Source of the DNA: Acidobacteria bacterium UBA2994
Lineage (GTDB): Bacteria; Acidobacteriota; Vicinamibacteria; Vicinamibacterales; UBA8438
NCBI GenBank assembly: GCA_002346545.1
Contig: DEAA01000053.1
Span: forward strand, 1-64,000
DNA: 64,000 nt
Reading direction: 5' to 3'
Part shown: positions 2,876 to 11,046 of the stretch, one piece after another
Numbering within the stretch: the first letter of the stretch is position 1
Layout of the letters: every line of letters starts with the position of its first letter
Notes under the pieces: generated by a model
The model's database searches: none
Seen by the model: only the letters and a program-made list of their open reading frames with translations
What the model was told of the DNA's origin: nothing
Made by a program: the position numbers and the translations under genes

Positions 2876-3889
2876 CTACACCGACTCCTTCAGCGTGACC
2901 GCGTCGAGAAACGGCATCATCCCGCGGAGTTCGACGCCCACTTTTTCGATCTGCAGCTCCTGCTCGGCGCGACGGGTCGCCATGAACTCGGGCCGGCCGG
3001 CCTTGTCTTCCTCGATCCAAGCCTTGGCAAAACTGCCGTCCTGAATGTCCCGGAGCATGCTGCGCATCGCCTCGCGAGTGGCGTCAGTAATCACCTGGGG
3101 ACCACCGGTGTAATCACCGCGCTCGGCGGTGTCGCTGACCGAGTAGCGCATGTAGTTGAGTCCGCCGCGGTAGATCAGGTCGACGATGAGCTTCAGCTCG
3201 TGCATACACTCAAAATACGCGACCTCAGGCTGATAGCCAGCGTCGACGAGGGTCTTGAAACCAGCCTTGATCAGCTCGCTGACCCCGCCGCAAAGCACCG
3301 CCTGCTCACCAAAGAGATCCGTCTCGGTTTCCTCGGTGAAGGTGGTCTCGATAACCCCTGCGCGAGTCACTCCAAGTCCCTTGGCGTAGGACATTGCGAG
3401 CGCGTGCGCGTTGCCAGTAGCGTCCTGCTCGACGGCGATAAGCGCCGGCGTGCCCCCCCCCTCCTGGAACACCTCACGCACCCGATGGCCGGGCGCCTTG
3501 GGCGCGATCAGAGTGACGTCGACATCCTTCGGCGGCGTGATCGTGTCGTAGCGGATGTTGAAACCATGGGCGAACATCAGCATGTCGCCCGACTTCAGGT
3601 TACTTGCGATCGACTCGGCATAGATTGCCGGCTGTTTGGTGTCGGGCGCTAGAATCATGATGACGTCGGCCCAGGCCGCCGCCTCGGCGCCGCTGTTGAC
3701 AGTAAGGCCGTCCGCCGCCGCCTTCGGGTGCGACTTGCTCCCCTCGGCCAGGGCCACCCGCACGTCCACGCCGCTGTCCTTGAGATTGAGCGCATGGGCA
3801 TGGCCCTGCGAACCGTAGCCGAAGATAGCTACCTTCTTTTGCTGGATGAGCGAGAGATCTGCCGCGTCGTCGTAGTGAATCGTTGCCAT
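2876..3889 (-). CDS. ilvC: Ketol-acid reductoisomerase
   Basis: A 337-residue class I ketol-acid reductoisomerase, normal length for the family. It isomerises and reduces 2-acetolactate or 2-aceto-2-hydroxybutyrate to the dihydroxy acid with NAD(P)H and Mg2+, the second common step of valine, leucine and isoleucine synthesis. The N-terminal Rossmann motif is [13 protein letters not shown] near residue 25. The helical C-terminal domain carries the Mg-binding Asp/Glu residues in [16 protein letters not shown] and [17 protein letters not shown]. It is the last gene of the ilvDBNC operon, 67 bases after ilvN. Expression should depend on the attenuator upstream of ilvD. Confidence 0.97.
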
Positions 3890-3956: not shown

Positions 3957-4502
3957 TCAGACCGAATAGGATACGTTGTCGTCGACTTCGCCGGGAGTCT
4001 CATCCGAGGGCCCCTCGACCGGCGCCTGCTGACCGCGAGACATGGCGACCCGTCCGGTACGCACCATTTCCAGCACCTCATAGGGCTCGAGCACGCCCAT
4101 CAGCCCGTCGATCTTCTCCTCGGTGCCGGTGGCTTCGATGATGAGCGAGTCAGGCGCCACGTCGACCACCTTGGCGCGGAAGGTGTCGACTAACTGCATG
4201 ATGTGGGTACGGGTCTCCTGGTCGGCACTGACCCGGATCAGCGTTAACTCGCGCACCACCGCTGCCTCGGCGGTCAGGTCGGTGACCCGAAGCACGTTCA
4301 CCAGCTTGTAGAGGTTGGCCTCGAGCCGCTTGGCCCCATTGGCGTCGGTGTCGACCACAATGGTCATCCGAGACACCCCGCTGGTTTCGGTGTGCCCGAC
4401 TGTCAGCGACTCGATGTTGAAGGCGCGACGCCGGAACAGCGACGCCACGCGGTTCAGCACCCCGGGCTTGTCTTCGACATGAACGACGAAAGTGTGACGC
4501 AT
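3957..4502 (-). CDS. ilvN: Acetolactate synthase small (regulatory) subunit
   Basis: A 181-residue regulatory subunit of acetohydroxyacid synthase, which binds valine and activates the catalytic subunit. The N-terminal ACT domain reads MRHTFVVHVEDKPGVLNRV and continues FNIESLTVGHTE; the C-terminal half is the ALS_ss_C-type region (VDTFRAKVVDV, IIEATGTEEKIDGL). The C-terminal tail after about residue 158 is acidic and lacks similarity. The ATG at 4502 is chosen because the ACT domain starts there and GGAAAG precedes it. The ilvB-ilvN gap contains a GC-rich hairpin (GCGCGC, 5-base loop, GCGCGC, 4579-4595) right at the ilvB stop codon. Also called ilvH in other bacteria. Confidence 0.95.
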   Translation of the reverse strand: MRHTFVVHVEDKPGVLNRVASLFRRRAFNIESLTVGHTETSGVSRMTIVVDTDANGAKRLEANLYKLVNVLRVTDLTAEAAVVRELTLIRVSADQETRTHIMQLVDTFRAKVVDVAPDSLIIEATGTEEKIDGLMGVLEPYEVLEMVRTGRVAMSRGQQAPVEGPSDETPGEVDDNVSYSV

Positions 4503-4594
4503 CTTCTTTCCATGGGGCTCCGCACCAAACCCCGGCTCTTCGCTAGTGAGGCACAACGCCCCACACAGCTCGTCGCGGGCGCGCTATGTGCGCG

Positions 4595-6313
4595 CTAGTC
4601 GTCGGCTGTCTCCACGATCGGGCTCGGACTGGGTCGGCGGATCATGGCTTGGAGATCGGCGCCGGCGGGCACCATCGGGTAGACGGTGTCCTCCTGCTCC
4701 ACCCGGAAGTCGATCACGACGGCGCCCTCGTGGGCCCGCGCCATCTCGATGGTCGGCTCGACGTCCTGCCGGCGAGAGACCTGGGCGCTCTTCAGGCCGA
4801 ACGCCTCGGCCAGCTTGGCGAAGTCGGGGCTGAGCAGCGGCGTCGCAGCGTACCGGCGCTCGTAAAAGAACTCCTGCCACTGACGCACCATCCCAAGGTA
4901 GCCGTTGTTGATGATGGCCACGTTGATCTTGACCTTCTCCTGGGCAATGGTGGCCAACTCGCACATGGTCATCTGGAACCCACCGTCACCAACCACAACC
5001 CACACCTCGGCATCTGGTCGAGACAGCTTGGCGCCAATGGCGGCCGGCAGCGCGAACCCCATCGTGCCCAGACCGCCAGAGGTGATAAGCGAACGGGGCT
5101 CCTGGTGGTGGTAGTACTGCGCCTCCCACATCTGATGCTGGCCGACGTCGGTCACCACCACCGCCTGGCCGTCGGTCATCCGCCAGATGTCATTGATGAC
5201 GTGCGCGGCATAGAGATGCCCGCTGTCGGGAATGTTTTGGACGTCCCGCACTGCCGAATCGCCCTTCATCACCCCGATCGCTGAGAGCCAGTCGGACCGA
5301 TCGCCACGCTCCACATGAGGCAGGAGATCGGCGAGCACGGCCGACAGGTCACCCGCCAGCGCCACGTCCACCAGCACGTTCTTATTGAACTCGGCCGGGT
5401 CGATGTCGATGTGTATCTTCCGGGCGTTGGGTGCGTAGGTCTTGAGGTTACCGGTCACCCGATCGTCGAACCGCATCCCGAACGCCAGCAGGAGGTCCGC
5501 CTCCTGAATAGCCTGATTCACCCATGCCTCGCCGTGCATCCCCATCATGCCGAGATTGAGGGGGTGGAGCGCCGGCACCGACCCTATTCCCAGCAGCGTC
5601 ATCGCGATCGGGATGTTCGCGCGCTCGGCGAACTCGCGCACCAGATCCATCGCCCCGGACAGCATCACACCGTGGCCGGAAAAGATGACGGGCCGCTTCG
5701 CGCCGTTGATCAGCTCTACAGCCTGCTGGTATTCGGCTTCGGTCGCCCGGAGCTCGGGGCGATACCCCGGCAGTTGCACGGGGCTGTCGTCCCAGACGAA
5801 CTCGGTTGACGACTGCTGGGCGTCCTTGGTGATGTCCACTAGCACCGGACCGGGTCGACCAGACTTCGCAACGTAGAACGCCTCGTGGATAGTCGGCGCC
5901 ACCTCGTCGACGTCTGACACCAAATAATTGTGCTTGGTGATCGGCAGAGTCACGCCGGTGACATCGGTTTCCTGAAACGCGTCCGAGCCAATCAGCTTAC
6001 TCCCAACCTGGCCGGTGATGCAGACCATGGGCGAACTGTCGAGCATGGCCGTGGCGATGCCGGTCACCATGTTGGTGGCGCCTGGGCCAGAGGTAGCAAT
6101 CGCCACGCCGACCTCGCCGCTGGCGCGCGCATAACCGTCGGCCATGTGCGTGGCACCCTGCTCGTGGCGCACCAGCACGTGACGGATCGGGTACTCGAGC
6201 ATCGCGTCGTAGGCGGGCAGGATGGCACCGCCCGGATACCCGAAGACGGTGGAGACGCCTTCGCGCACCAGCGACTCCCATAGGATCTGCGCGCCGGTTC
6301 GAATGTTGTCCAT
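4595..6313 (-). CDS. ilvB: Acetolactate synthase large (catalytic) subunit
   Basis: A 572-residue ThDP- and FAD-dependent enzyme that condenses two pyruvates, or pyruvate plus 2-oxobutyrate, at the first common step of branched-chain amino-acid synthesis. The ThDP-activating Glu lies in VRHEQGATHMADGYARASG near residue 50. The central FAD domain is intact (GHGVMLSGA onward). The ThDP-binding motif is GDGGFQMTMCELATI followed by NNGYLGMVRQWQEFFYE near residue 480. Length and motifs match AHAS rather than oxalyl-CoA or pyruvate decarboxylases. It starts 26 bases after ilvD and is followed by its regulatory subunit. Confidence 0.96.
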   Translation of the reverse strand: MDNIRTGAQILWESLVREGVSTVFGYPGGAILPAYDAMLEYPIRHVLVRHEQGATHMADGYARASGEVGVAIATSGPGATNMVTGIATAMLDSSPMVCITGQVGSKLIGSDAFQETDVTGVTLPITKHNYLVSDVDEVAPTIHEAFYVAKSGRPGPVLVDITKDAQQSSTEFVWDDSPVQLPGYRPELRATEAEYQQAVELINGAKRPVIFSGHGVMLSGAMDLVREFAERANIPIAMTLLGIGSVPALHPLNLGMMGMHGEAWVNQAIQEADLLLAFGMRFDDRVTGNLKTYAPNARKIHIDIDPAEFNKNVLVDVALAGDLSAVLADLLPHVERGDRSDWLSAIGVMKGDSAVRDVQNIPDSGHLYAAHVINDIWRMTDGQAVVVTDVGQHQMWEAQYYHHQEPRSLITSGGLGTMGFALPAAIGAKLSRPDAEVWVVVGDGGFQMTMCELATIAQEKVKINVAIINNGYLGMVRQWQEFFYERRYAATPLLSPDFAKLAEAFGLKSAQVSRRQDVEPTIEMARAHEGAVVIDFRVEQEDTVYPMVPAGADLQAMIRRPSPSPIVETADD

Positions 6314-6339: not shown

Positions 6340-8052
6340 TTACCCAGTGGTCACCGCGCCTTGCGCGGCTGACGACACCAACCGAGCGTACTTGGCCATG
6401 ACGCCGCTGGTGGTCTTCGACTTAGGAGGCCGCCAGGCCGCGCGTCGCGACGCCAGCTCCTCTTCACTGACTTCTAACTCGAGCTTCCGGTTCTGCTCGT
6501 CGAACAGGATCGTGTCACCGTCACATACGAGCGCGATCGGACCACCCTTGGCGGCTTCCGGGGCCACGTGTCCGGCCATCATGCCGCGGGTCGCTCCGGA
6601 AAAACGGCCGTCGGTCAGCAACGCCACCGACTCACCTAGCCCGGCGCCGACGATGGCAGCGGTTACCGCCAGCATTTCACGCATGCCCGGACCGCCCTGC
6701 GGTCCTTCATAGCGGATCACCACGATGTCTCCAGCCTTGATCTGGCCCCGTTCGATGGCGGCGAACGCTCCCTCCTCGCCGTCGAACACGCGAGCTGACC
6801 CGCGATGCTGCTGCGGCGTGTGCCCGGCGACCTTCACCACGCAGCCATCGGGCGCGAGGTTGCCGCGCAAGATCACCAGTCCCCCTGTAGGTGTTATCGG
6901 GTCGGACACCGGCCGCATCACCTTTTGCCCGGCGGTTTCTTGCGCGCTGTCGGCGACCTCGCCAATGGTCTGGCCCGTCACGGTCATGGCATCGCTGTGC
7001 AGGAGGCCGGCCTCCTTAAGGCGATGCGCCACTAGCTCGAGGCCCCCGGCCCGATAAAGGTCCGTCGCCACGAACTGCCCACCCGGCTTCAGGTCGGCCA
7101 GAAGCGGCGTCCGTTCACTGACCCGATCGAAGTCCTCCATGGCCAGCTCGACTCCGGCCTCATGCGCTATAGCGAGCAGGTGCAGCACGGCGTTGGTCGA
7201 GCCGCCGGTAGTCGCCACGGCCGCGATGGCGTTCTCGATCGCGTCCTTGGTGACGATGTCACGGGGACGGACGCCTCGTCGAACCAGGTCGAGGACGAGC
7301 GCGCCGGCCTGCTTCGACACTTCGTACTTCTCGGGCCGGGTGGCAACCTCACCGCCCTCGTCGAGAAGCGTGGTTGCCGGCACCCCGTTGGCCGCCATCG
7401 GCGACACGCCGAGTAGCTCGCAGACCGTGGACATCGTGTTGGCCGTGAACTGGCCGCCGCACGCACCGGCGCCCGGGCAAGCCACGTTTTCGAGCGCCAG
7501 AAGCTCGCCGTCGGTCATCGTGCCGGCAGCATGGGCACCCACTGCTTCGAAGACGTCCTGAATAGTGACGTCCTTCCCGTCGTACCGTCCGGGCGCGATG
7601 GAACCGCCGTAGAGGACGAGGCCTGGGATATTGAGACGCACGAGCGACATAACCCCGCCGGGAATCGTCTTATCGCATCCCACCAAGATGACGATGCCGT
7701 CAAACAGGTTGCCCCGCGCTACGAGCTCGATCGAGTCAGCGATCACCTCACGGCTGACGAGCGAAGTCTTCATCCCCTCGCTGCCCATGGTGATGCCGTC
7801 CGAGATGGAGACCGTGTTGAACTCCATCGGCGTGCCGCCGGCCTCGCGAATCCCCTGCTTGACCTCTTCGGCCAGGTCACGCAGGTGGTAATTACACGGA
7901 CCGATCTCGGTCCAGGTGTTGGCCACCCCGATGATCGGCTTCGCTAGCGCCTCGTCGTCAAAGCCCACCGCCTTGAGCATGGCGCGCGCCGGCGCCCGCG
8001 ACGGGCCGTCGGTGATCTCACCGCTACGGGTCTTGCCGGATGTTGCGCTCAT
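6340..8052 (-). CDS. ilvD: Dihydroxy-acid dehydratase
   Basis: A 570-residue Fe-S dehydratase that converts 2,3-dihydroxy-3-methyl acids to 2-oxo acids, the third common step of branched-chain synthesis. The cluster ligands are in GCDKTIPGG (about residue 120) and CPGAGACGGQFTANTM (about residue 190). The C-terminal GRFSGATRGMMAGHVAPEA motif of the IlvD/Edd family is present. I choose the ATG at 8052 because family similarity begins just after it; the longer open frame upstream runs through the attenuator. No strong Shine-Dalgarno is visible between the terminator T-run and the ATG. First structural gene of ilvDBNC. Confidence 0.96.
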   Translation of the reverse strand: MSATSGKTRSGEITDGPSRAPARAMLKAVGFDDEALAKPIIGVANTWTEIGPCNYHLRDLAEEVKQGIREAGGTPMEFNTVSISDGITMGSEGMKTSLVSREVIADSIELVARGNLFDGIVILVGCDKTIPGGVMSLVRLNIPGLVLYGGSIAPGRYDGKDVTIQDVFEAVGAHAAGTMTDGELLALENVACPGAGACGGQFTANTMSTVCELLGVSPMAANGVPATTLLDEGGEVATRPEKYEVSKQAGALVLDLVRRGVRPRDIVTKDAIENAIAAVATTGGSTNAVLHLLAIAHEAGVELAMEDFDRVSERTPLLADLKPGGQFVATDLYRAGGLELVAHRLKEAGLLHSDAMTVTGQTIGEVADSAQETAGQKVMRPVSDPITPTGGLVILRGNLAPDGCVVKVAGHTPQQHRGSARVFDGEEGAFAAIERGQIKAGDIVVIRYEGPQGGPGMREMLAVTAAIVGAGLGESVALLTDGRFSGATRGMMAGHVAPEAAKGGPIALVCDGDTILFDEQNRKLELEVSEEELASRRAAWRPPKSKTTSGVMAKYARLVSSAAQGAVTTG

Positions 8053-8065
8053 CGCTGGAATCCAC

Positions 8066-8103
8066 AAAAAAAGGGCCATCAACCGTATGCGGATGATGGC
8101 CCT
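8066..8103 (-). terminator. Intrinsic terminator of the ilv attenuator
   Basis: On the minus strand AGGGCCATCA (8103-8094) pairs perfectly with TGATGGCCCT (8081-8072). A further CCG/CGG pair inside the 12-base loop extends the stem, and seven T residues follow (8072-8066). It lies only 13 bases before the ilvD start codon and after the leader peptide, so it can end transcription before the structural genes. Confidence 0.93.
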
Positions 8104-8133
8104 ACCTAATCGCTGTCGGGGTACATCATCCGC
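8089..8133 (-). promoter_or_regulatory. Antiterminator of the ilv attenuator
   Basis: GCGGATGATG (8133-8124) is an exact complement of CATCATCCGC (8098-8089). The second segment is part of the 5' arm and loop of the terminator, so the two hairpins exclude each other. The first segment overlaps the leader stop codon (8128-8126). A ribosome that reaches the stop would cover it and allow termination; a ribosome stalled on the upstream Val codons leaves it free to pair. A separate 6-bp stem (TGTCGG 8159-8154 with CCGACA 8143-8138) could be the early pause hairpin. Confidence 0.88.
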
Positions 8134-8200
8134 TGGATGTCGGCGTAATGACACCGACACTGGCGACAACGACGACAGAGCGAAGCTGAAGGCTATCCAT
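8126..8200 (-). CDS. ilv operon leader peptide (branched-chain amino-acid attenuator)
   Basis: A 24-residue leader beginning MDSLQLRS and containing the run VVVVASVGVI. Two Leu, six Val and one Ile make up 9 of 24 residues, with four consecutive Val codons at 8176-8165. The stop codon lies inside the antiterminator arm. This is the layout of enterobacterial ilvGMEDA and ilvBN leaders, although the peptide sequence is not the same. An in-frame ATG at 8218 would add six residues; another at 8254 overlaps the predicted -10 box and is unlikely to be transcribed. No strong Shine-Dalgarno is seen before either start. Its role is to sense charged tRNA-Val, -Leu and -Ile by ribosome stalling; the peptide itself probably has no function. 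Confidence 0.9.
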   Translation of the reverse strand: MDSLQLRSVVVVASVGVITPTSSG

Positions 8201-8249
8201 CGAACATGCGGGCCCCATGGGACGCCCCCGGGGCCACCGAGATTCACTC

Positions 8250-8280
8250 ATTGTATCGCGGGCACGGATCAGGTCGTCAA
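8250..8280 (-). promoter_or_regulatory. Candidate sigma-70-type promoter of ilv operon
   Basis: On the minus strand TTGACG (8280-8275) and TACAAT (8255-8250) are separated by 19 bases. The -10 hexamer differs from consensus at one base and the -35 hexamer at one base. Transcription would start near 8243, about 43 bases before the leader ATG at 8200. The spacer is two bases longer than ideal. Confidence 0.6.
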
Positions 8281-8836: not shown

Positions 8837-11046
8837 ATGTATCGATCGTGGAAATTCGTTTTGTCGTCGTTGCTCTTTCTCTGGCTGTCCAGCGCCATCC
8901 CGGCGGTGGCTCAGACTGCGTCCTGGACCGGCACCATCACCGACGCCCAGGACCTCCCCTTGCCCGGCGTCTCTTTGGAGCTCCGTGACCTGGACGACGG
9001 CTTCGTCGCCGGCACCACGACCGACCGCGACGGACGCTACGAGTTGCTGATTCCGGAAGGTTCGTATCGCCTGAGCGCTAGCCTGCTCGGCTTCGACACC
9101 CACCGCGTCACGGTCACGATCGCCAGTGGTGGGGACACCCTCGACATCCAGCTCGAGGTCGGAACCTTTGCCCAGGAGGTCGTGGTCTCGGCCACCATGC
9201 TCGAGCTGGCCCGCGAGTACGTGGTGTCGGCGCGAGTGGCCGAGCAGCGCGCCGTACAGGACATCGCCCAGCAGCTACGGACGGCACCTGGCCTTTCGGC
9301 CGTACGTCGAGGCCCGATCAATCTTGAGCCAACCGTACGAGGCCTACAGGAAACTCAGGTGGCCATGTTCGTCGATGGCACCCGGACCTACTCGGCGGGA
9401 CCAGCCCGCATGGATTCCGAGATCAGCCACGTCAGTCCGCACACCATCCAGCAAGTCCGCGTAGTGAAGGGCCCCTACGCGCTCACCTGGGGTCCGGGCG
9501 CGATGAGTGCGGTTCGTGTCGACACATTCCGGCCCGAGTTCTCGAGCGGCGACTTCGTGGTCGGCGGCCGCTTCGGCGGGAACTATATTCAGAGTGGGGA
9601 AAACCGAGACGGTTTCGCCGGCCTCTGGGGGAGCAACGACAAGACCCGCTTTGCCCTCTACCACAACACCCGGATCGGCAACGACTACGAGGACGGCGAC
9701 GACAAGGTGATTCCGGGCGACTACAAGTCGTTCGATACGCGCTGGGCTTTCGGGTTCAAGCCAAATGCTGAGACTACGGTCGAGTATCTCGGCGGCCACC
9801 AGGAGCAGCGTGGCATTGATTACGCTGGCCGCATCCTCGACGCCTCGTTTTTCAAGACCTACTCCCACGCCGGAGAAGTCACGTGGCGCCCCCGGGACGG
9901 GTTCGTCGCCGAGATCTACGGCCAGGTCTACAGCAACCAGAAAGACCACCAGATGAACAACGACGAGAAGCCGACGGCCCGAGACATGCCTGGTCGCATG
10001 CCGCCGTTCGGCCTGCGGGTAGACTTCCCTACCTCGTCCGACGCCACGGGCGCGCGGTTCCACGTGCTGCTGGATCAGGGCGTGATCGACCGGATGCGCG
10101 GTTGACCAACATGGGCGGCTACGCCCAGGTCATCTACGACTGGGGCGGCGGTCAACTGGGAGCCACGGCTCGCATCGACGCGCTCGACGCCTCGGCCGGG
10201 ATGGTGTCGGACTTCTTCGCCACCAACACGACCGGTACGCTCGACCAGGCCGAGACGAACGTCAGCGCCGCCGTGAACCTGACGATCCCTGTAGGCGAGT
10301 CATTCGTCTTCACGACCGGCGGGGGACGTTCGGTGCGCAGCGCCACCGCCATCGAGCGCTATTCGGACCGGTTCCCGTCGACGAAGTTCCAGATCGCGGC
10401 CGAGTTCATGGGGAACCCGGCGCTCTCCCCGGAGGAGGCGCTCGAGATCAACTCGGGCGGTCTATTCCAGATAGGCCAGGCCACCGTCAACGCCGACTTC
10501 TTCTACCGACTGATCGACAACTACATCACCGTGACGCCGGAGGCCTTGCTAACCAAGCGGTTGCCGTTGAGCCCGAGCACGGTCTTCCGCTACATCAATG
10601 GCGGCCAAGCCCGGTTCAGCGGCTTCGAACTGACGGCGAACTCCGGAGTAGGTCCCCACGCCACGCTCAGCGGCGCCCTGAGCTACATACGGGCCGAGGA
10701 CACACTGCTGAACGAGCCGGTGTTCGGCGTCGCGCCGCTCGAACAGCGCTACACCATCCAGGGCCATACCCGAGACCAGCAGCGCTGGGTGGAACTGGCC
10801 GTGACCGTGGTTGCGGAGCAGGACCGGATTGCCGTGACGCGCCTCGAACAGGCCACCGACGGCTGGGCCCGGATCGATCTGCGCGCCGGTCTGGCCATAG
10901 CCCACGGGATGTCGGCGCTGATCGGGGTGGAGAACCTGACCGACGCAACCTACGCCACGCACCTGAACGTGCTAAACCCGTTCACCCTGCAGCGCATCAA
11001 CGAGATCGGCCGCAGTTACTACGCCGGTTGGGAGTGGGGGTTCTAG
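8837..11046 (+). pseudogene. TonB-dependent receptor (OprC/metal-receptor-like), frameshifted with apparent internal deletion
   Basis: Frame one (8837-10105) gives 422 residues: a signal peptide ending AIPAVAQ, a carboxypeptidase-regulatory-like domain (residues about 25-110) and a plug domain with RTAPGLSAVRRG and HVSPHTIQQVRVVKGPYALTWGPGAMSAV, then the first barrel strands. It stops in GVIDRMRG. Coding resumes in another frame at PDARLTNMGGYAQVIYDW and runs to 11046, ending with the aromatic C-terminus YYAGWEWGF typical of outer-membrane barrels. The junction near 10085-10100 also seems to lack about 30-40 residues that normally separate these strands. The plug motif RGPYALTWG-type and the GRMPPFGLRVDFPT segment resemble copper-receptor-like TonB proteins; the metal assignment is inference. 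Non-functional if the shift is real. Confidence 0.75.

Follow-up and report, generated by a model that had tools for sequence, protein, structure and literature searches.

The ilvDBNC operon in the window, meaning here the whole 64,000 nucleotide stretch of DNA analysed, is very probably controlled by a classical, ribosome-mediated transcription attenuator 5' of ilvD. The case for this is made by the parts of the element, their conservation and covariation in relatives, and folding with masked ribosome positions. The window belongs to a draft genome of the Vicinamibacterales (Acidobacteriota), 4.12 Mb in 82 contigs, and the phylum had been named correctly when the genome was called acidobacterium-like from the letters alone. 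A larger family of elements with a common core is a more interesting result than the attenuator of the window itself. The features are as follows.

8280-8275, minus strand: promoter -35-like hexamer TTGACG (sequence)
8255-8250, minus strand: promoter -10-like hexamer TACAAT (sequence)
8200-8126, minus strand: leader peptide ORF, ATG at 8200, 24 codons plus TGA, MDSLQLRSVVVVASVGVITPTSSG and stop (leader conserved in relatives)
8176-8165, minus strand: segment 1, control codons GTC GTC GTT GTC (Val x4) (sequence)
8159-8138, minus strand: hairpin P1 inside the leader, lying between segments 1 and 2 (covariation)
8133-8124, minus strand: segment 2, antiterminator 5' arm GCGGATGATG, containing the leader stop codon
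8098-8089, minus strand: segment 3 CATCATCCGC, 3' arm of the antiterminator, also part of the 5' arm of the terminator (sequence)
8102-8066, minus strand: putative intrinsic terminator (segments 3:4), 8102-8073 with T7 at 8072-8066 (sequence, fold)
8052-6340, minus strand: ilvD, dihydroxy-acid dehydratase, first structural gene, ATG at 8052 (NCBIfam TIGR00110, 697 bits)
4595..6313, minus strand: ilvB, acetolactate synthase large subunit (NCBIfam TIGR00118, 742 bits)
3957..4556, minus strand: ilvN, acetolactate synthase small subunit (NCBIfam NF008864, 203 bits)
2876..3889, minus strand: ilvC, ketol-acid reductoisomerase (NCBIfam NF004017, 540 bits)

All of the parts named in the earlier, sequence-only reading of this DNA, with their coordinates and the complementarity of leader, arms, and terminator, are present on the minus strand. 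The leader does have 24 codons with a VVVV run, Val making up 6 of its 24 residues, and the antiterminator arm does overlap the leader stop (TGA at 8128-8126, inside segment 2) and is the exact complement of segment 3. Segment 3 is common to two mutually exclusive stems, 8133-8124:8098-8089 on the one hand and 8102-8073 followed by T7 on the other. The terminator, previously given as 10 bp with T7, has that length if the first T is counted, the stem really being 9 perfect pairs, one T-T mismatch, and 3 further pairs with a loop of 4. Folded alone, the antiterminator region has an energy of -20.6 kcal/mol, the terminator -21.4 kcal/mol, and P1, a hairpin located after the Val codons and before arm 2 that was absent from the earlier description, -12.4 kcal/mol. 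In the full-length fold segment 1 is mostly paired with segment 2. The promoter-like hexamers are also where they had been seen, with 19 nt between them, which is above the optimal spacing; by eye, there is no clear Shine-Dalgarno sequence in front of the leader.

The operon order after the element, ilvD-ilvB-ilvN-ilvC, had been read correctly, as judged by the NCBIfam matches. The ilvN ORF as listed has a TTG start, with the family match beginning at residue 19. A 635 aa ORF with a GTG start (8247-6340), which would extend ilvD through the attenuator, was rejected by inference, because the conserved terminator would be crossed and because in the 570 aa form the family match begins at residue 7. 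Elsewhere in the window, on the plus strand, two overlapping ORFs in two frames (8837-10105 and 9883-11046) together resemble one gene, presumably for a TonB-dependent receptor, and their split looks like a frameshift or an assembly error.

By its sequence the element has the features of a classical attenuator, from which its regulation is predicted. RNA polymerase would start just 5' of the leader, with a ribosome following and translating the leader. When Val-tRNA is ample, the ribosome would reach the stop codon and cover segment 2, so that segment 3 would be available for the terminator, and transcription would end before ilvD. A terminating ribosome must cover segment 2, because the stop codon is inside it, and in replete cells termination would be due mainly to this. 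When Val, and probably also Ile, is short, the ribosome would halt in the VVVV run with segment 2 open, which would then pair with the emerging segment 3 before the 3' arm of the terminator exists, allowing the polymerase to read on.

Folding was carried out on 30 aligned rows with a ribosome masked at the stop, stalled in the control codons, or absent; in 2 of the 30 (L024 and L027) the stall position is misplaced, with the wrong leader frame. When a ribosome sits at the stop codon of the leader, the terminator (3:4) has a probability of 0.86–1.00 in all 30 rows, by folding only. When the ribosome is stalled and the RNA stops short of the 3' arm of the terminator, 2:3 forms at 0.86 or higher in 27/30 rows. 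At equilibrium, the stalled full-length transcript favours the terminator in 24/30 rows and the antiterminator in 6/30, the window having 0.06 for 2:3 and 0.82 for 3:4. Equilibrium folding was therefore rejected as proof of antitermination, and read-through would require that 2:3 forms first and persists, a kinetic matter. The earlier claim that stalling prevents termination rests on kinetics, the antiterminator winning in most folds of the shorter transcript but not at full-length equilibrium in most rows, the window included. Without a ribosome, the full-length RNA of the window folds as 1:2 plus the terminator; where the transcript ends before the terminator 3' arm, 1:2 beats 2:3 in 13/30 rows, with 2:3 at 0.99 in the window.

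In a search of 120 genomes, the genome itself included, ilvD was found in 88 at E 1e-100 or better, and in 24 of the 28 genomes of the same family. The element is directly upstream of ilvD in 20 of these 24, and the four with ilvD that do not have it (G009, G016, G022, G026) are all of genus g9. In the rest of the order another 13 genomes have it directly before ilvD, 13 have it before pheA, and 3 have it before ilvB. The leader, the stop in arm 2, and both competing stems are conserved in relatives with ilvD genes that are approximately 70–95% identical (95% in the same-genus genome G001).

The alignment of 30 rows leaves out L046 and the Geothrix rows, and L032-L041 and L043, being duplicates of other loci, are counted once. 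The proportions of paired cells, 91.6% for the antiterminator, 94.1% for the terminator, and 75.4% for P1, are conditional on the presence of the core, because the rows were chosen for showing it; when the partner is slid by 1–3 columns they fall to 16–66%. Double changes that keep the pairing are seen in 11 cells of arm 2:3, 13 of stem 3:4, and 27 of P1, counts that were reached by none of 500 shuffles, although the shuffles ignore kinship. Arm 2:3 also has 11 double-change cells when slid by +3, and by the weaker measures it is matched by 57/500 shuffles for pairs with a double change and by 239/500 for further pair types. In individual loci segments 2, 3, and 4 have changed in concert, to GGGTGA/TCACCC/GGGTGA in L025 and L031 and to GGATGACG/CGTCATCC/TGACGG in L042 and L045. 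The comparison with relatives that had been proposed along with the sequence-only reading has therefore come out in its favour, the leader and both stems being kept with compensatory changes.

The leader is retained as a peptide as well, Val being kept across the rows while its codons differ (GTC/GTG/GTT), and in the ilvD rows V, I, and L make up 0.30 of the frame that ends at GGNTGA and 0.13 of each of the other frames (30 rows). In L023, L024, and L026-L030 the leader passes through GGATGATG/GGGATGATGTAG in a different frame, with ...GMM before a TAG stop, while the nucleotides GGATGATG are unchanged. In these rows it is the nucleotides that are conserved and not the peptide, and the coding and RNA constraints on the element can be distinguished. 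Among the control codons it is those for Val, and some for Ile, that are conserved, which agrees with the Val and Ile of the sensing proposed earlier but not with its Leu, since the two Leu codons of the window leader are not generally conserved.

A promoter-like pair of hexamers is present in 23/30 rows, as a raw count with a loose pattern. Just 5' of the -35-like box before ilvD a stretch like AAGAATTATAA recurs in L018, L019, L022, L023, L005, L006, and others, perhaps an UP element or a regulator site; it is absent from the ilvD upstream region of the window.

A covariance model, R1, was built from the 30 ilvD elements only. It matches 71 of the 120 relatives, 30 of which contain R1 training rows, and 46 of 396 genomes sampled across the phylum; 23 of the 46 are from outside the order, and 19 of these 23 were inspected, leaving out G284, G299, G346, and G467. 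On 31 genomes reached through named loci there were 5 matches: 0/15 among those labelled as other phyla, 0/1 of unstated phylum, 0/10 among Geothrix/Holophagaceae and genera of Terriglobia type, and 5/5 among the others. Three of those five genomes hold training sequences (L034, L037, L042), such that their ilvD matches are by construction, but their hom matches are not.

In the genome of the window R1 has a second match (L220, G000:C54:8958-9073, minus strand, E 4e-11) before a homoserine dehydrogenase gene (NCBIfam PRK06349, 410 bits), with a leader, MSAIFPICLPGPTTATMAPARLGQSG, that has Thr codons (TTATM). The two cores have GCGGATGATGTA and GGCCATCATCCGCA in common. Outside the ilvD and hom places this genome has no R1 match better than E 4, and at both places the opposite strand scores as well under R1.

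Other than the ilvD-adjacent ones known from the ilvD search, 100 stretches around R1 matches were inspected, the downstream gene being the best match to reference genes. These are 36 hom, 12 pheA (L310 doubtful, 42% identity), 9 ilvB, 6 ilvN, 4 cimA, 2 ilvA, 2 ilvD, 1 ileS, 1 gltB, and 5 LysR-type regulators (L296 doubtful, 28%), and one that scored as ilvC but has ilvN in front. The 21 remaining comprise 5 thrA (L306 confirmed by Pfam, the other four 69–83% identical to it), 6 with a small-protein gene, 2 cysteine-pathway, 2 cupin-like, and 6 without an assigned gene (L228, L255, L278, L279, L288, L300), of which L278 and L279 look like false matches. A pheA with the element is the first gene of an ilv operon, with ilvD or ilvB next in 10 stretches and ilvD just beyond pheA by coordinates in G106, G029, and G100. 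The leaders before pheA are Val-rich, not Phe-rich, because those pheA genes head ilv operons.

The residues of the leaders mostly appear to follow the pathway of the downstream gene. When target residues are counted as a fraction, first in the frame that ends at GGNTGA and then in the two other frames (L310 left out), V, I, and L account for 0.42/0.18/0.13 before ilvB (8/9 rows), 0.52/0.19/0.10 before ilvN (6 rows), 0.39/0.08/0.12 before pheA-ilv (9/11 rows), 0.38/0.12/0.17 before ilvA (2 rows), and 0.36/0.19/0.12 before cimA (3/4 rows). The figures are 0.23/0.03/0.10 for T and M before hom (32/33 rows, several of which use the third frame; three g9 rows, 0/3 with the motif, are set apart), 0.31/0.05/0.09 for T and I before thrA (5 rows), and 0.25/0.10/0 for C before the cysteine genes (2 rows). 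The single ileS leader has 0.33 Ile, in the third frame.

Within the family, exact GGATGATG in arm 2 is present in 17/19 ilv elements as against 2/24 hom elements, while GG[AG]TGA[TC]G in arm 2 is in 17/19 ilv and 20/24 hom elements and CCATCA[TC]C[CT] is in all 43 of the ilv and hom elements. Part of the likeness between hom and ilv cores is there by construction, R1 having been used to find the hom elements. In genus g9 the ilv element is absent in 4/4, and 3/4 have a hom match that lacks the stop-bearing arm.

On balance, these elements may be a modular attenuator family of the Acidobacteriota, a reading slightly more likely than not, in which one antiterminator-terminator core (GGRUGAUG / CAUCAYCC / GGRUGAUGGCC-U) would have been duplicated or recombined beside leader cassettes carrying codons for Val/Ile/Leu, Thr/Met, Ile, or Cys. 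It would be one RNA switch with exchangeable amino-acid sensors for operons of ilv, hom/thrA, ileS, cysteine, and other genes, among them an unnamed small-protein gene. The sensing codons are in the variable leader and the switch core is similar, which opens attenuator origin and change of specificity to study in this family. The comparison points to leader-peptide attenuation as a likely and widespread form of control over Val/Ile and Thr/Met synthesis in the order, represented here mostly by MAGs, and leader codons may predict what unknown downstream genes respond to.

Several elements stand apart as observations. Leu/Ile-rich attenuator-like elements lie before an ORF of 46–90 aa ending GYG[HYF]G[VI] in L230, L237, L259, and L311 (genus g24) and in L238 and L239; in g24 this ORF is convergent with ilvC. 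The small protein is found in 6 of the 120 relatives, all g24, L238 and L239 having only the C-terminal motif in common with it. It has no Pfam match and 394 homologues, the 120 listed among them being unnamed or 'hypothetical protein' and without a Pfam domain. Cys-rich leaders with the core are seen in L252 (G049; CPICSCCC), before siroheme/sulfite reductase genes, and in L321 (G030; CVACCC; R1 E only 9e-4), before a JAB-domain gene that is presumably linked to cysteine synthesis. The hom attenuators L312, L313, and L307 of family f11 have Met-rich leaders, such as HMSMPMSMRMRTVSAMSMRS. Attenuator-like elements lie before LysR-type regulator genes in L236, L253, L297, and L303 (L296 doubtful), with some leaders V/I/L-rich. 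In L261 and L272 the core is a variant, the leader is Leu-rich, and a cupin-like gene follows, which in L261 scores just below the cut-off for Cupin_2 and just above that for AraC_binding. In Geothrix (L055, L061, L062, L067, L068) a conserved BCAA-rich leader, such as VVRPVAGLVAIPAVLIISGEVGAP, precedes ilvD with a different terminator (GGCCCCGC), perhaps an independent attenuator; R1 did not find the element in the two of these five genomes searched (L055, L061).

It could be that the leader and stems are real, but that termination is set by a protein or by the overall pace of translation and the control codons are irrelevant. Indeed, replacement of the candidate control codons in a comparable ilvB leader of Streptomyces coelicolor is reported, in the available text of PMC1262725, to be without effect. 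There are also leaders here with no obvious match to their gene, namely those of gltB (L260, R1 E 4.5e-9, before the glutamate synthase large subunit and without an evident glutamate match), the LysR genes, the cupin-like gene, and, for hom, L257 and L291, which are Leu-rich, and L302, which like the g9 rows has no clear run. On average, however, the residues match the pathway, V/I/L for ilv, Thr and Met for hom, Thr and Ile for thrA, Ile for ileS, and Cys for cysteine genes, and this counts against a codon-blind device, which needs no such match. Control that ignores the codons is therefore considered improbable.

It is much less probable that the leader serves as an 'antenna' for ilvD through translation re-initiation, with the hairpin incidental. 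Leader genes near structural genes are enriched in several groups including the Acidobacteria, but the peak of the enrichment is at short distance, 10–14 bp in the groups for which the available text of PMC4833913 quotes figures, and here the leader stop and the ilvD start are 73 nt apart with the terminator in between. Re-initiation was rejected at this distance as too far, and the stems covary.

Control of the operon by a riboswitch, T-box, or other ligand-binding leader is equally hard to credit. While ppGpp riboswitches control ilvB in some bacteria, according to the text available for PMC10272879, 0/4227 Rfam families match in the window at gathering score, and near the element there are only three sub-threshold matches (E 0.33–1.1). 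There is no T-box around the element at E up to 10, nor in 20 loci of relatives without a detected element upstream of ilvD, and 20 loci with sister or ilvD elements gave no Rfam match at gathering score but a tRNA. T-boxes, riboswitches, and Rfam leader families were rejected on these grounds, there being no relevant matches in the window or in the loci of relatives. Near ilvD of Bryocella elongata an Acido-Lenti-1 RNA matches at gathering score (L100:2825-2869).

Chance or artefact, a terminator beside an unrelated small ORF, is scarcely credible even though short ORFs and hairpins are common, given the conservation and covariation of the stems and that a detector that requires an antiterminator, a terminator, and an ORF rich in V/I/L that ends at the arm finds the full pattern in 18/23 family upstream regions and in 0/460 dinucleotide shuffles. 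The five family regions missed are the four of genus g9 and L009, where the core is visible to the eye, yet fails the strict detector. The full pattern was found for 0/106 window ORFs of at least 150 aa, mostly mechanical, where the element of ilvD itself is outside the tested stretch because ilvD was taken from its longest, mechanical start. The folding z is -2.9, with 1/200 shuffles equally good. The 4.12 Mb genome has exactly two places with the pattern GGCCATCANCC-N3-9-GGNTGATGGCC, and none with the backwards control.

The literature on leader-peptide attenuation, to which later titles add Staphylococcus and Listeria, holds several comparable cases. Attenuation by a uORF is named for ilvB of E. 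coli in the available text of PMC10272879. The ilvBNC leaders of Corynebacterium, Mycobacterium, and Streptomyces (ilvB-II motif and others) likewise have a BCAA-rich uORF and terminator before ilvB, but belong to Actinobacteria, and in the text available their exact mode of regulation is called unclear and no core in common with Thr or Cys attenuators is described (PMC1262725, PMC10272879). The ilvB-OMG motif, an RNA with a BCAA/Thr-rich uORF and 41 representatives in 'various bacterial phyla', is similarly a probable uORF attenuator before ilvB, as far as the available text goes (PMC10272879); it differs in that the window has no Rfam gathering-score match, although the motif may not be in Rfam. 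In the text available, the uORF attenuator of cysS in Rhodobacterales has the same logic as the Cys sister elements (PMC8632094), and conserved complementary triples were already known within trp attenuators (PMC1262725).

In the titles and abstract starts searched, with the survey of Lopatovskaya et al. 2010 outside the search, no attenuator is described in the Acidobacteria, in line with the earlier supposition that there was no described example in the phylum, and no earlier description of a core common to attenuators for different amino acids was found in the same literature. Since the ilvB-OMG motif spans several phyla, an earlier case in this phylum may exist. The logic is old, and it is the phylum and the core common to attenuators for different amino acids that seem to be undescribed in the literature searched.

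The ilvBN (ivbL) and ilvGMEDA (ilvL) attenuators of Escherichia coli have a Val/Leu/Ile-rich leader with competing antiterminator and terminator. The element of the window, likened to them by description, shares the BCAA-rich leader, the competing stems, and the ilv operon, and differs in its phylum, its operon order, the stop codon inside arm 2, and the hairpin nested between the control codons and arm 2. The thr operon attenuator (thrL) has the same logic as the hom/thrA (Thr) sister elements. The thrL and cysS attenuators are separate sequences, however, whereas here one covariance model finds elements for several amino acids.
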